The notes under the pieces are model-generated. The model had not been told where the DNA came from and did not search any database. It saw only the letters and a program-made list of their open reading frames with translations. Both the position numbers and the translations under genes were made by a program. Source: an uncultured Phascolarctobacterium sp. (lineage in GTDB: Bacteria; Bacillota; Negativicutes; Acidaminococcales; Acidaminococcaceae). Taken from it: a DNA stretch of 64,000 nt. Shown here one piece after another: positions 6,456 through 48,346 of the stretch. The stretch's first letter is position 1. The number at the start of each line of letters is the position of its first letter. The stretch spans positions 62,001-126,000 of the forward strand of contig CASFZG010000001.1 of assembly GCA_949299135.1 (NCBI GenBank), written 5' to 3'.

Positions 6456-7784
6456 CTATTCGTCCTCTTTTTTGCCGCGGATTATCATCGTCAGCGGCGT
6501 ACCTTCAAAGCCGAACGCTTCACGCAGTTTGTTTTCCAGATAACGCTGATAGGAAAAATGCATGATTTCCGGCTCATTAACAAAAATAACAAACGTCGGC
6601 GGTTTAATTTTAACCTGCGTAGCGTACAAAATTTTCAGGCGCTGGCCTTTATCCGTCGGCGGCGGATTAACCGCAACGGCGTCGGCAATAACCTGGTTCA
6701 AAACGCTGGTTGCCACGCGCATTGCGTTCTGCTCGGCAACGTAGTTGATAACCTCCGGCAGGCGGTGGATACGCTGCTTGGTAAGCGCCGATACAAACAC
6801 CACCGGTGCGTACTGCATAAAAATCAGCTCTTTGCGCAGATTTTCGGTATAGCGCAGAGTGCTGTTCTCGTCCTTTTCGTAAATATCCCATTTATTTACG
6901 ACGATAACAATGCCCTTGCCTGCTTCATGCGCGTAACCGGCAATTTTTTTGTCCTGCTCGGTAACGCCGTCCACAGCGTCGATAACCATCAGCACCACGT
7001 CGCTGCGGTCCACGGCGCGCAGACTGCGGATAATGCTGTATTTTTCAATCGGCTCGTCAATTTTGCCCTTGCGGCGCATGCCTGCGGTGTCGATGAACAG
7101 GTACTTCTGCCCGTTGCGCACAACCGGCGTGTCGATAGCGTCGCGCGTAGTACCGGCAACGTCGCTGACAATGCTGCGCTCCTGCCCTACCAGCGTGTTA
7201 AAAATGGAAGACTTGCCTACATTCGGGCGGCCGATAAGCGCAACCTTAATCTGGTCCTCGTCGTTGTCAAACATACCCGCCTTGTTTTTGGGGAATTTCG
7301 CCACAACGGCGTCCAAAAGGTCGCCGATGCCCAAATGGTTAGCTGCTGAAATCGGGAACGGTTCGCCCAAACCTAAGTTATAAAATTCGTATACGTTCAA
7401 TTCCTGCTTCGGCGAATCGGCCTTGTTTACCGCCAGCACAATCGGCTTGCCGCTTTTGCGCAGAATTTTGGCAACGTCGCTGTCCTCCTGCACAATGCCG
7501 CTGCGCGCGTCACACACAAACAAAATAACATCCGCCTCTTTAATGGCAATTTCCGCCTGCTGGCGGATAGAAACGGCAATCGCATCGCTGTTCATAATCT
7601 CAATACCGCCGGTATCAACCATCATAAACTGATTGTCCAGCCAGTCGCCCTCGGCGTAAAGGCGGTCGCGCGTAACACCCGGCGTATCCTCAACAATGGA
7701 GATGCGGCTGTTTGCAAAAATATTAAATAAGGTCGATTTGCCCACATTAGGCCTGCCAACAATGGCAACTATCGGTTTACTCAT
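6456..7784 (-). CDS. der: GTPase Der (EngA), ribosome assembly
   Basis: A 442-residue double GTPase needed for 50S subunit maturation. The first G domain has GRPNVGKST (10-18), DTPG and NKAD. The second has GRPNVGKSS, DTAGMRRKGK and NKWD. A KH-like domain follows and ends in MIIRGKKEDE. Both G domains look complete. plsY follows in the same transcript, a common arrangement in Firmicutes. Confidence 0.98.
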   Translation of the reverse strand: MSKPIVAIVGRPNVGKSTLFNIFANSRISIVEDTPGVTRDRLYAEGDWLDNQFMMVDTGGIEIMNSDAIAVSIRQQAEIAIKEADVILFVCDARSGIVQEDSDVAKILRKSGKPIVLAVNKADSPKQELNVYEFYNLGLGEPFPISAANHLGIGDLLDAVVAKFPKNKAGMFDNDEDQIKVALIGRPNVGKSSIFNTLVGQERSIVSDVAGTTRDAIDTPVVRNGQKYLFIDTAGMRRKGKIDEPIEKYSIIRSLRAVDRSDVVLMVIDAVDGVTEQDKKIAGYAHEAGKGIVIVVNKWDIYEKDENSTLRYTENLRKELIFMQYAPVVFVSALTKQRIHRLPEVINYVAEQNAMRVATSVLNQVIADAVAVNPPPTDKGQRLKILYATQVKIKPPTFVIFVNEPEIMHFSYQRYLENKLREAFGFEGTPLTMIIRGKKEDE

Positions 7785-43121: not shown

Positions 43122-44294
43122 TTAATCCGTCACAAAGATTTCAAAAATTTGGTTGCCCACTTCCATCCCTGCTTCCGTCAGGCTGATGTTATGCCCGTCC
43201 TCATCAATTTTTATCAGCCCACGGGCGATAAAAGGCGCAAGCTCCGCGCCGTATTTTTGCCGTACATCCACGCCGAAGCGTTCTTTTGCTTCCAATAAAT
43301 TAACGCCGCTTTTTTTGCGCAGCCCCATGAACATAAATTCTTCAAACTGCACGGCAGGCGTAAGCTGTTCAATATCGTAAACCGGTTTGCCGTTTGTAAT
43401 TCCTTCTATATAATTGCGCACAGCGGGCGTACCTGTAAAACGCGCGCTGCCGTTAAAGCCGCACGCGCCTGCGCCGAACGCCGCATAAGGGTAGTAATGC
43501 CAGTATACTAAATTATGTTTGCTGTATGTGCCACCACGGGCGTAGTTGGATATTTCGTACCGCTCAAAGCCCTGCGCCTTTAAAAATGCCTGCACAAACT
43601 CGTACATATCGGCAGCTTCGTCCTCATCCGGTAAAATTATTTTGCCTGCCTCCAGCAGCTTTTGCAGCGGCGTACCGTCCTCCACAATCAGGCCGTACAC
43701 GGAAAGGTGTTCAATGCCGGTCGCTGCAAGCTGCTGCAAGGTATTTTTAAGGCTTGCCATGCTCTGCCCGGGCAGGCCGTAAATAACATCGGCGTTAATG
43801 CACGCAAAACTTGCCTGTTTGGCAAAGTCTATGGCTTCCAACGCTTCTGCCGCATTATGCACACGGCCAATCGCGCGCAGCTCGTCATCGTTTAAGCTCT
43901 GCACGCCAAAGCTGATACGGTCAAAGCCCATCTGCCGCAGCGCTTTTAATTTTGCCAAATCAACAGTGCCGGGGTTAGCTTCGATGCTTGCCTCGCGCGG
44001 CTGCTGCCAGTAACCATACCGCTTTAACGCACTTACAATCTGCTCAATGCAATCCACCGGCAAAAGGCTGGGCGTGCCGCCGCCAAAATAAACGCTGGCG
44101 TTGGCGGTTACCGGCAAATCTTTACTGCGCCCGGCAATCTCTCGGCATACGGCATCGGCATACACCGACATTACGTCCGCGCCAAAACCGGCGTAAGAAT
44201 TAAAATCGCAGTACAGGCACTTTTGCCTGCAAAACGGTATATGCACATAAATGCCCTGTATTTGTTTGTATGGTTGTAAAATTTTTTCTTTCAT
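43122..44294 (-). CDS. hemW: HemW, radical SAM heme chaperone
   Basis: A 390-residue radical SAM protein with C22-x3-C26-x2-C29 (PFCRQKCLYCDF) and the HemW pattern HNLVYWHYYPYAAFGAGA. The fourth cysteine that marks true HemN (CxxxCxxCxC) is absent (residue 31 is Phe), so heme trafficking is more likely than coproporphyrinogen oxidation. I chose the ATG at 44292-44294, with AAAGG nine bases upstream. A longer frame to 44339 runs into the inverted-repeat element. It lies 30 bases upstream of the hrcA promoter. Confidence 0.93.
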   Translation of the reverse strand: MKEKILQPYKQIQGIYVHIPFCRQKCLYCDFNSYAGFGADVMSVYADAVCREIAGRSKDLPVTANASVYFGGGTPSLLPVDCIEQIVSALKRYGYWQQPREASIEANPGTVDLAKLKALRQMGFDRISFGVQSLNDDELRAIGRVHNAAEALEAIDFAKQASFACINADVIYGLPGQSMASLKNTLQQLAATGIEHLSVYGLIVEDGTPLQKLLEAGKIILPDEDEAADMYEFVQAFLKAQGFERYEISNYARGGTYSKHNLVYWHYYPYAAFGAGACGFNGSARFTGTPAVRNYIEGITNGKPVYDIEQLTPAVQFEEFMFMGLRKKSGVNLLEAKERFGVDVRQKYGAELAPFIARGLIKIDEDGHNISLTEAGMEVGNQIFEIFVTD

Positions 44295-44330
44295 AACATT
44301 ACCTTTATGTAAATTTAAGTATAAACGCAA

Positions 44331-44484
44331 AAAATCCAAAGGCTTGTGCTATAAGGCAACTAACAAAAACTGCGGCGGCAAAATTTAAGGCTGTAATCCC
44401 CGTGAGTCCGGCGCGCAGCCCGGACGGAATCGGAGGAGCCGCAGCATTTTTGAGTTGCCGCAATAGTATAAACCTTTGGATTTT
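44331..44484. repeat. MITE-like or structured element with long inverted repeats
   Basis: The 154-base segment begins AAAATCCAAAGG (44331-44342) and ends with its exact complement (44473-44484). Inside, GGCAACT (44355-44361) pairs with AGTTGCC. CTGCGGC (44370-44376) pairs with GCCGCAG, and GTCCGG pairs with CCGGAC in the centre. Together the arms pair over about 50 bases with few breaks. It fills the hemW-purL spacer. It shares ATTTTTGAGTTG (44446-44457) with the second element near 56807. No clear target duplication is seen. Confidence 0.75.
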
Positions 44485-44519
44485 AGTCATTTTTACTTAT
44501 TTATTTTAACAATCTTTAT

Positions 44520-44562
44520 TACAAAAAACAATACCGCCCCTGCATAGTGCAGAGACGGTATT
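44520..44562 (-). terminator. Terminator after purL
   Basis: Outer arms AATACCG/CGGTATT and inner CTGCA/TGCAG at 44530-44562, followed by GTTTTTTG. Confidence 0.85.
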
Positions 44563-44578
44563 AAAAGTTACTCAAGCA

Positions 44579-47500
44579 TTATTTAAAATAATTTACGCCG
44601 CTGATGAAGATTTTCTGGTCTTTGCTGCCACTGATATTTTTGAACAGACCGGGCACAAAGCGTTCGGTATGGCCCATTTTGCCAAGAATTCTGCCATCGG
44701 GGCTGGTAATGCCTTCGATAGCATACAGCGAACCATTCGGGTTATGCGGCATTGCCATGGTCGGGTTGCCGTTTTCATCAACGTACTGCGTTGCCACCTG
44801 TCCGTTGGCAAACAGCTCTTTAATAGTTGCTTCCGGCGCATAGAATCGTCCTTCGCCGTGAGATACGGCAACGGAATGAATTTCGCCCGGTTCAACGGCA
44901 CTGAACCACGGGGATTTGTTGGAAACAATGCGCGTGCTAACAATCTGCGATACATGGCGGCCAATGTTGTTGAAGGTCAGCGTCGGGCTTTCCGCCGTCA
45001 TGTCGCGGATTTCGCCGTAAGGCACAAGGCCGAGTTTAACCAGAGCCTGGAAGCCGTTGCAGATACCGAGCATCAAACCGTCTCGGTCGTTAAGCAAACG
45101 CTCAATAGCTTCTTTAATACGCGGGTTGCGCAGCATGGTGGCAATAAATTTGCCGCTGCCGTCCGGCTCGTCACCGGCGCTGAAACCGCCCGGAAGCATT
45201 ACAATCTGCGCGTTGTCAATCATTTTTACCATCGTTGCTACGGATTCTTCTACCGCCTGCGGGGTAAGGTTGCGCACAATAAAAGTTTCGGCAACTGCTC
45301 CTGCGTCCTCAAACGCGCGGGCGCTGTCGTATTCGCAATTGATGCCCGGGAATACCGGAATGAATACGCGCGGTTTGGCAATGGTTACCGGTGCGGTCAA
45401 AGGCAGTTCTGCCTTATAAAGCGGCAGGTCGATGTCTTTGTCATCTTTATCCGCGGTTTTGGACGGGAAGATGCCTTCCAGCGGAGCGCTGTATGCTTTA
45501 AGCGCAGCCGCGATTTCAATAACGTCGTCGTTGATGGCGATAACCGGTTTTTCTGCGGTGTGGCCAAGCAGCATGTAGTCCAAACCGTCGAACAGTTCTT
45601 CCGGTTCAACGCCTGCCGCAAGTTCCAGCACCAGTCCGCCCGGCTGCAAAGTAAACAGTCCGTCGGTGTCGTTGTAAGGTTTAATAAATTCAAAGCCAAG
45701 GTTGTTGCCAAGGCACATAGTTGTAATAAGCGCTGCAATACCGCCTTCTTTTACGGCAGCGGCGGCGCTGATTTTGCCTGCCAGCATTGCATTATGCACT
45801 GCGGTAAGGTTCTGTTTCAGCACGCCGAAGTCAGGCACTTCGCTATTATCGCGTGGGCAGGAAAGGAACACTACCTTGCTGCCTGCCTGTTTGAATTCTG
45901 CCGATACGGCTTTGTCGCCGTCGATAACGTCAACCGCAAAGGATACCAGCGTCGGCGGAACGGTTTTATCCATAAAGGTACCACTCATGCTGTCCTTGCC
46001 GCCGATTGCAGGCAGTTCCAAAGCGTCCAGCGCGGTAAATGCGCCAAGCAGTGCGGCAAACGGCTGCCCCCAAAGTTCGGTATTGTGCAGTTTAGGGAAG
46101 TATTCTTGGCAGGTCAGGCGCAGTTTGGAGGGGTCAGCACCCAAAGCAACGGCGCGGGTTACAGATTCCACAACTGCGTACATTGCGCCGTGGAACGGAC
46201 TCCAGCAAGCAACATCCGGATTATAGCCGCAAGCCATTACGGAAGCTGCCGTTGTTTTGCCGTGCAGTACGGGCAGTCGTCCAACCATGCCTTCAGCCGG
46301 GGTAAGCTGGTTTTTGCCGCCAAACGGCATCAGCACGGTACCACGGCCGATGGTGCTGTCAAAGCGTTCACTCAAACCTTTCTGGCTGCAAACATTCAAA
46401 CGTCCAAGGTTTGCCAGCCATGCGTCTTTCAGTTCTTTGCCTGCAACCTCTGCCGGGATTTTATCAAATATGCATTCGCCGGTGGTTTCCAGAACTTTAA
46501 CATCGGCATGCTGTGCCACGCCGTTGGTGTTCAAAAAGTCGCGGGAAAGGTCAACAATCTTATCGCCGCGCCAGAACATTACAAGGCGCCTGCTGTCGGT
46601 AACTTCACCGATAACGGTTGCTTCAAGGTTTTCCTCATCGGCGAAAGCCACAAATTTTTTAATATCCGCCGGGGCGATGACAAGCGCCATACGTTCCTGC
46701 GATTCGGAAATTGCAAGCTCGGTGCCGTCAAGGCCTTCGTATTTTTTCGGTACTTTATCAAGGTCGATAACCATGCCGTCGGCCAGTTCGCCGTTAGCAA
46801 CGGATACGCCGCCTGCGCCGTAGTCGTTGCAGCGTTTAATCATCGGCGTTACTTCCGGATTGCGGAACAGGCGCTGGATTTTGCGTTCGGTCGGCGGGTT
46901 GCCTTTCTGTACTTCCGCGCCGCAGCTTGCCAGCGAATCAACGGTATGTTCCTTGGAAGAACCGGTTGCGCCGCCGCAGCCGTCACGGCCGGTTCTGCCG
47001 CCGAGCAGTACCAGAAGGTCGCCCGGTTCAGGAGTTTCGCGTTTAACAAGGTTACGCGGCACAGCGCCTACAACAGCGCCGACTTCCATACGTTTTGCTA
47101 CAAATTTATCGTGGTAGTATTCCTGTACATGGCCGGTTGCAAGGCCGATCTGGTTGCCGTAAGAGCTGTAGCCTGCTGCCGCGCCGATAGTAATTTTGCG
47201 CTGCGGCAGTTTGCCGGGCAGAGTGTCTTCAACAGGTACGCGCGGGTCGGCAGCGCCGGTTACGCGCATAGCCTGATATACATAGGCACGGCCGGAAAGC
47301 GGGTCGCGGATTGCGCCGCCAAGGCAGGTAGCAGCGCCGCCGAACGGCTCGATTTCCGTCGGGTGGTTATGGGTTTCGTTTTTGAACAGCAGCAGCCATT
47401 CTTCGGTTTTGCCGTCAACTTCAATCGGCACAACAATGGTGCATGCGTTAATTTCTTCCGATTCGTCCAAATCGTTCAGTTTGCCTTCAGCACGCAGTTT

Positions 47501-48346
47501 TTTCATACCGATAACGGCGATGTCCATCAAAGTTACAGGGCGTTTGGTATCCGCGCCATAAACTTCGTCGCGCGCCGCCATGTATTTATCCAGCGCAGCC
47601 TGTACCGGCTGGTTGTAAAGGCCGGGCTCAATTTCCACGTCCTCAATCTGCGTCATAAAAGTGGTATGGCGGCAGTGGTCGGACCAGTAAGTATCCAGAA
47701 CCTTAATTTCGGTAATGGTCGGTTCGCGGTGTTCTTCGTTAAAATATTTCTGGCACCACAGCAGGTCGTCCAGACTCATGGCCAGTCCGTTTTCCACGCG
47801 GTAGGCTTCCATTTCGTCTTTGGTAAAGGTCAAAAAGCCCTCTACGGATTTAATTTTCTGAGGCTCCTCGCAGGTCTGCACAAGGGTTGCCGGTTTTTCC
47901 CACGCAGCTTCGCGCGCTTCAATCGGGTTGATGCAGTAAGCCTTGATTTTGGCAAACTCCTCGTCGCTGATTGTGCCGGACAAAATATAAACCTTGGCGG
48001 AAGATACCAGCGGACGCTCCTTCTGGGTAATCAGCTGAATGCACTGTGCGGCAAAGTCTTCCCTCTGGTTGTACTGGCCGGGCAAAAATTCAACGGCAAA
48101 AGCGCGGCAGCCTGCCGGCACTTCCAGTTCTTCGGTAACGGTGTCAACCGGGGGTTCGCTTAAAACCAAACCTTTGGCAGCGGCAAACTCCTCATCGGTT
48201 ACGCCCATCACATCGTAACGGTTCAGCACGCGGATACCGGTTAAGCCTTTCATGCCGAGGTTAGTCTGCAAATCGGCGAGCATACCCCTTGCTTCAACGG
48301 CAAAAGCTTCTTTTTTCTCTACAAAAATGCGTCTGATTTTGTCCAT
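44579..48346 (-). CDS. purL: Phosphoribosylformylglycinamidine synthase, single-chain PurL-PurQ
   Basis: A 1255-residue enzyme of purine synthesis, converting FGAR, glutamine and ATP to FGAM. The N-terminal PurS-like region, two AIR-synthase-like halves (with LLFKNETHNHPTEIEPFGG and AIGGKDSMSGTF) and a C-terminal class I glutaminase are fused. The glutaminase carries the nucleophile Cys in LGICNGFQALV and begins VFIPVFPGINCEYDSARAF. This is the clostridial single-chain form; most monoderm bacilli have separate PurS, PurL and PurQ. It follows the GNAT gene by 24 bases. No purine riboswitch is seen. Confidence 0.96.
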   Translation of the reverse strand: MDKIRRIFVEKKEAFAVEARGMLADLQTNLGMKGLTGIRVLNRYDVMGVTDEEFAAAKGLVLSEPPVDTVTEELEVPAGCRAFAVEFLPGQYNQREDFAAQCIQLITQKERPLVSSAKVYILSGTISDEEFAKIKAYCINPIEAREAAWEKPATLVQTCEEPQKIKSVEGFLTFTKDEMEAYRVENGLAMSLDDLLWCQKYFNEEHREPTITEIKVLDTYWSDHCRHTTFMTQIEDVEIEPGLYNQPVQAALDKYMAARDEVYGADTKRPVTLMDIAVIGMKKLRAEGKLNDLDESEEINACTIVVPIEVDGKTEEWLLLFKNETHNHPTEIEPFGGAATCLGGAIRDPLSGRAYVYQAMRVTGAADPRVPVEDTLPGKLPQRKITIGAAAGYSSYGNQIGLATGHVQEYYHDKFVAKRMEVGAVVGAVPRNLVKRETPEPGDLLVLLGGRTGRDGCGGATGSSKEHTVDSLASCGAEVQKGNPPTERKIQRLFRNPEVTPMIKRCNDYGAGGVSVANGELADGMVIDLDKVPKKYEGLDGTELAISESQERMALVIAPADIKKFVAFADEENLEATVIGEVTDSRRLVMFWRGDKIVDLSRDFLNTNGVAQHADVKVLETTGECIFDKIPAEVAGKELKDAWLANLGRLNVCSQKGLSERFDSTIGRGTVLMPFGGKNQLTPAEGMVGRLPVLHGKTTAASVMACGYNPDVACWSPFHGAMYAVVESVTRAVALGADPSKLRLTCQEYFPKLHNTELWGQPFAALLGAFTALDALELPAIGGKDSMSGTFMDKTVPPTLVSFAVDVIDGDKAVSAEFKQAGSKVVFLSCPRDNSEVPDFGVLKQNLTAVHNAMLAGKISAAAAVKEGGIAALITTMCLGNNLGFEFIKPYNDTDGLFTLQPGGLVLELAAGVEPEELFDGLDYMLLGHTAEKPVIAINDDVIEIAAALKAYSAPLEGIFPSKTADKDDKDIDLPLYKAELPLTAPVTIAKPRVFIPVFPGINCEYDSARAFEDAGAVAETFIVRNLTPQAVEESVATMVKMIDNAQIVMLPGGFSAGDEPDGSGKFIATMLRNPRIKEAIERLLNDRDGLMLGICNGFQALVKLGLVPYGEIRDMTAESPTLTFNNIGRHVSQIVSTRIVSNKSPWFSAVEPGEIHSVAVSHGEGRFYAPEATIKELFANGQVATQYVDENGNPTMAMPHNPNGSLYAIEGITSPDGRILGKMGHTERFVPGLFKNISGSKDQKIFISGVNYFK

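Follow-up and report, generated by a model that had tools for sequence, protein, structure and literature searches.

The intergenic region between hemW and purL in an uncultured Phascolarctobacterium sp. carries one member of a repeat family that is probably best understood as a genus-restricted group of non-coding, intergenic long hairpins of about 155 bp, that is, small non-autonomous mobile repeats of the ERIC/YPAL kind in which the ability of the + strand to fold is maintained. The family appears to be undescribed, its kind being already known, and a literature search returned no paper joining Phascolarctobacterium with inverted repeats in intergenic regions. What is unusual is that paired arms peculiar to each site occur together with inversion in place at several sites. 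As in repeats of the ERIC/YPAL kind, the element is shorter than 200 bp, non-coding, dispersed and intergenic, folds into a long stem-loop, and has orthologous sites that are filled in some genomes and empty in others, with gain or loss mostly ambiguous.

The window, the whole 64,000-nt stretch of DNA analysed, had earlier been read from its letters alone as holding a MITE-like element or a repeated structured RNA with matching 12-bp ends. These ends are present, AAAATCCAAAGG at 44331-44342 and its exact complement at 44473-44484, enclosing 154 nt with the ends included, and the segment lies where that sequence-only reading placed it, between purL (- strand, 44579-48346) and hemW (- strand, likely 43122-44294, with its start at about 44294). 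The claimed inward continuation of the arm pairing also holds, a repeat search extending the arms to 37 nt at 78% identity (44316-44352 and 44463-44499). The + strand of the 154 nt folds at -71.9 kcal/mol, against -41.9 +/- 3.9 kcal/mol for dinucleotide shuffles (z -7.6), and the - strand at -64.8 kcal/mol (z -6.5). Chance is excluded as the origin of this hairpin, because about 60 other copies repeat its arms, inner stems and GC-rich core. All copies share one common long hairpin with stems P1 to P4, laid out in the window as follows, together with the neighbouring terminator:

44331-44484, + strand: repeat element, given on the strand with conserved pairing; 12 copies in the genome; G-U favoured over A-C
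44332-44352, + strand: P1 5' arm, outer half site-specific, inner half TTGTGCTAT conserved (alignment columns 5-25)
44463-44483, + strand: P1 3' arm, pairing with 44332-44352 (alignment columns 141-161); double changes in 18 of 21 pairs
44355-44358, + strand: P2 5' side, partner 44456-44459; double changes in all 4 of 4 pairs
44456-44459, + strand: P2 3' side, partner 44355-44358; covarying
44365-44376, + strand: P3 5' side, AAAAACTGCGGC, conserved, with compensatory changes in GCGGC/GCCGC
44438-44451, + strand: P3 3' side, GCCGCAGCATTTTT, from the alignment of copies and the analysis of pair changes
44398-44435, + strand: P4 hairpin, the conserved core, with an internal loop of GA opposite GGAA and near-invariant CGGAATCGGAGG
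44529-44563, - strand: purL intrinsic terminator from a terminator scan, separate from and outside the element

P1 is about 21 bp long; its inner half (TTGTGCTRT / AYAGTRYAA) is conserved, while its outer half differs in sequence from site to site and mostly still pairs. At its base, P1 is rich in A on the 5' side and in T on the 3' side. The short P2 stem covaries, the GC-rich stem P4 contains near-invariant CGGAATCGGAGGAGCCGCAG, and the unpaired core positions are near-invariant in the alignment of copies. The recurring features are the fold and the inner core; the 12-bp ends, on whose match the MITE label had rested, are private to hemW-purL and different at every other site. A MITE in the classical sense, which a cut-and-paste transposase moves and whose terminal inverted repeats are conserved, would account for the size, the intergenic position, the dispersed copies and the empty sites, but it is hardly credible here. 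The ends vary between sites, the conserved part lying in the interior; among the sites compared neither a conserved terminal inverted repeat nor a consistent target duplication was found (the S3 junction is compatible with a repeat of AAAATAAAA..GCCAAAG, 16 bp or so, the S4 and hemW-purL junctions are not); and membership fails because the defining conserved terminal repeats are absent. Of the two earlier alternatives the repeated structured RNA fits better and the MITE more poorly, the data showing features of both. A 61-codon frame on the - strand (44305-44490) overlaps the hairpin; it had been read as only reflecting the repeat, nothing favours coding, and a coding role is not supported, the conserved signal being base pairing. 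Separately, a 1164-codon frame runs antisense to purL (window 44669-48163, + strand) and is most likely an effect of composition, not a gene.

The sequence-only reading had proposed looking for further copies, empty sites and covariation, and all three were found. By blastn the element lies at 12 places in the window's own genome (G000) at 73-100% identity, weaker rows being echoes or chance, and at 2-13 places in each of five congeneric genomes, and it is in none of 55 non-congeneric relatives. A covariance model built from 35 copies recovers it in six of six genomes of the genus (some rows being weak opposite-strand echoes of the same palindromic copy), the hemW-purL copy scoring 159.8 bits at G000:C1:106328-106486, and in none of 53 genomes from the rest of the family. 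Across GTDB representatives, a core 22-mer matches genomes of the Phascolarctobacterium clade, e.g., Phascolarctobacterium sp. ET69; three matches in unrelated genomes (Lachnospiraceae, Chitinophaga, Clostridia) are considered chance, and four core matches in viral contigs are dismissed, none of them having support from the covariance model. Plasmid and phage collections gave no match to the element, and Rfam models at a permissive E-value gave only chance-level hits, none above the gathering score. Judged from these searches, the repeat family is restricted to the genus Phascolarctobacterium.

With gap classes assigned by simple ORF prediction, 33 copies lie in tandem, 16 in convergent and five in divergent gaps; those in tandem gaps occur in both orientations (21 anti, 12 co), and many copies have a stop codon within 30 bp. 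About 16 sites are common to congeners. The hemW-purL site itself is empty in G002, S3 is filled in G002 and G004 and empty in G000 and G003, S4 is empty in G003 with one arm (AAACAGGTAC) remaining, and S14 is filled in G002 and G003, reduced to a one-arm relic in G004 and empty in G000. Deletion is the probable origin of some of these empty sites, given that hemW-purL, S3 and S4 are each filled in a more distant congener. S3 offers the strongest case for gain, being a recent nearby copy whose core is 96-97% identical to the S2 core 2.8 kb away and at most 89% identical to that of any other site; S2 would be its likely source, with gene conversion as an alternative. The best reading of the site comparisons is that copies are now mostly inherited vertically and sit mainly near gene 3' ends. 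The purL-hemW junction of G001 holds two opposite copies about 70 bp apart (L058:6750-6896, - strand, and 6966-7124, + strand), one of them degenerate (76 bits), and the S11 site, which holds the element in G000 and G001, is occupied in G004 by about 5.3 kb of other DNA (L102:10105-15440).

The position of the copies bears on a further reading, in which the element serves the adjacent genes as an intrinsic terminator module working in both directions. The A-rich and T-rich base of P1 with a GC step inside it speaks for such a module, as do the prevalence of tandem and convergent gaps and the stop codons that often lie no more than 30 bp away; the reading is nonetheless quite improbable, as purL already has its own terminator, separate terminator-like hairpins adjoin the element at S2, S3, S4, S10 and S14, five copies lie in divergent gaps, and the conserved core would be superfluous for termination alone. 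The hemW-purL copy as the purL terminator is rejected, given the intrinsic terminator of that gene at 44563-44529. Two proposals for the origin of the arms fared no better: the outer arms as a terminator stem with the element inserted into its loop is unsupported as a rule, since the empty S4 site keeps one arm and at S14 a terminator coexists with the element relic in G004, and a shared GCCAAAG..CTTTGGC terminator hairpin as their source is rejected at only 0-3 such hairpins per genome. The solitary hairpin AAAGCCAAAGGCTGTACTTTTTACGGTATATGCCTTTGGCTTT (L183/L184, upstream of the element; G002:C14:10255-10297) looks like P1 lacking the core and may have arisen from a copy by internal deletion, with a present role as a terminator.

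Conservation of the fold is most apparent from compensatory change. Pairing covers 90.9% of cells over 35 distinct copies, and 34 of 53 pairs have changed on both sides; the covariation score is 0.382 against 0.180 when shuffled, and pairing falls to 38-48% when the partner is slid by 1-3 columns. A single copy lacking compensatory changes, the outcome that would have spoken against the earlier reading, is excluded by these changes and by the copies themselves. The pairing is furthermore strand-biased: on the + strand of the aligned copies, G-U and A-C mismatches stand at 155:25, and in the hypervariable outer half of P1 G-U exceeds A-C at 16 of 18 informative sites. Set against column-wise expectation, A-C and G-U number 16 v 34 and 40 v 51 in outer P1, 1 v 19 and 57 v 72 in inner P1, and 4 v 20 and 57 v 74 in P4, so that the depletion below expectation is stronger for A-C than for G-U, in an informal comparison of cells that are not independent. 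The bias is seen in either orientation of the element relative to neighbouring genes. The excess of G-U over A-C means that it is the + strand whose pairing is favoured, whether in RNA or in single-stranded DNA; selection on a + strand RNA would be the simplest reading, and a folded + single-stranded DNA intermediate is a possible alternative. Compensation beyond controls and strand-specific tolerance of G-U, the marks of a structured RNA, are thus both present, and template switching, by which compensatory change can arise at the DNA level, can contribute to them (PMC8794818).

These observations allow two rival accounts of the family to be weighed. In the first, which is unlikely but the more serious of the two, the copies form a paralogous family of structured RNAs, small or cis-acting, that serve the host, were spread by gene duplication or conversion and are immobile. 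Strong conservation of the fold and the + strand bias suit this account, as do the many sites common to congeners, which indicate vertical inheritance, and the several copies behind paralogous genes for outer-membrane-protein-like products, with which they could have spread; yet flanks are unrelated at most sites, presence varies between close congeners, the copies have neither an orientation preference relative to neighbouring genes nor a conserved upstream sequence, and S3 holds a recent nearby copy. The copies directly behind paralogous genes are those at L063, L067, L077, L085, L088, L094 and L095, the C-termini of the gene products look like those of outer-membrane beta-barrel proteins, and some spread of copies may have accompanied gene duplication. 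In the second account, the element is a palindrome at the DNA level only, its covariation and paired arms arising wholly from template switching with the folded molecule unselected. Published arm homogenisation and spacer inversion provide a precedent, and the in-place inversions described below are direct signs of exchange between arms, but strand symmetry would then be expected, in conflict with the 155:25 ratio and the stronger depletion of A-C, and the unpaired core positions are near-invariant; this account is held improbable.

At five sites (S4, S5, S7, S8 and S13) the element stands in opposite orientations in different genomes between collinear flanks. The flipped orthologues are mutual best core matches (92, 93, 94, 96 and 99%) and are therefore inversions, not independent insertions. 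Those at S4, S7, S8 and S13 are read directly in the sequence; in G000 the element at S5 has about 650 bp of additional DNA next to it. Most of the genomes are MAGs, and assembly error as the source is unlikely given an imperfect repeat of 20 bp; the S13 inversion, moreover, includes an isolate genome (Phascolarctobacterium sp. ET69, G001). At S4 and S7 the outermost arm bases are unmoved by the inversion, which places the switch inside the P1 arms. Template switching between inverted repeats is reported to homogenise arms and invert spacers (PMC8604942, PMC8794818), and such switching between the arms would explain both the inversions and the self-complementary outer arms peculiar to each site.

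Under the favoured reading of a mobile repeat of the ERIC/YPAL kind, past insertion, mostly near gene 3' ends, would have been carried out by machinery whose recognition does not depend on conserved terminal repeats. Once a copy is in place, template switching from one inverted arm to the other as the DNA replicates would re-match them, which is the proposed reason for the site-specific outer arms, and would sometimes invert the core. The folded + strand of the core, as RNA or single-stranded DNA, would be needed by the element for its persistence or movement, and for the host the element would amount to no more than a hairpin close to 3' ends, with a possible effect on termination or the stability of transcripts. 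A bolder extension, in which the unit of selection is the folded + strand RNA or single-stranded DNA, the arms are rebuilt at each site by template switching and core flips are frequent enough to act as a multi-site orientation switch near 3' ends, is regarded as rather unlikely. The analysis adds a seemingly undescribed genus-specific repeat family in a human-gut genus that is of use in annotation and perhaps in typing strains. It also offers a natural test case of how template switching between inverted arms gives rise to spacer inversion and RNA-like covariation in bacteria, a suitable one because congeners, with flanks that are mostly 93-98% identical, allow inversions and arm changes to be compared.

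Among known systems, invertible promoters and other site-specific DNA inversions resemble the element in being short segments between inverted repeats found in both orientations (for example PMC10939037). Unlike those promoters, the Phascolarctobacterium element has no recognised inner promoter and no identified recombinase, its sites are mainly near gene 3' ends, and its inversion is seen between species, with inversion within a population only putative. REP/RAYT repeats, like the present element, are extragenic palindromes; for them, movement via folded single-stranded DNA and a part in termination or mRNA stabilisation have been proposed, but REPs measure only 20-40 bp (PMC3733652). The Y1_Tnp domain (PF01797) is matched in only two of the six genomes of the genus and has no match in congener G001, a 100%-complete genome with about 15 copies; Y1/RAYT-type transposases are therefore not an obvious partner, and RAYT/IS200 is rejected as the present mobiliser. 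The window's genome has two strong matches to Y1 transposases (IS200-like), one of them interrupted by a stop (L171, L173; G000:C14, G000:C12).

The stem-loop repeat families, including Bcr1, likewise comprise intergenic repeats of about 150 bp in tens of copies with a common predicted RNA structure, whereas the description of Bcr1, the basis of this comparison, includes no comparable in-place inversion (PMC2267715). ERIC/IRU is a dispersed intergenic repeat of about 127 bp whose transcript folds into a long stem-loop, with a proposed effect on mRNA stability (PMC2229807). The Phascolarctobacterium element shares its dispersal, intergenic location and long stem-loop fold, but ERIC has conserved ends, a short TIR, TA termini and a target duplication, and the ends of the present element are not conserved (PMC2229807). 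YPAL/RU-2 of Yersinia is a 168-bp intergenic long palindrome with internal inverted repeats and both filled and empty sites (PMC2229807). Its target duplications are variable (3-26 bp), whereas none is established for the Phascolarctobacterium element, and its description, from a different genus and the sole basis of comparison, is without in-place core inversion or site-specific paired outer arms (PMC2229807). Like YPAL/RU-2, the Phascolarctobacterium element is an intergenic long palindrome that is not especially A+T-rich, whose terminal repeats are not conserved, whose sites are found both filled and empty, and whose targets span or adjoin dyad symmetry (PMC2229807).
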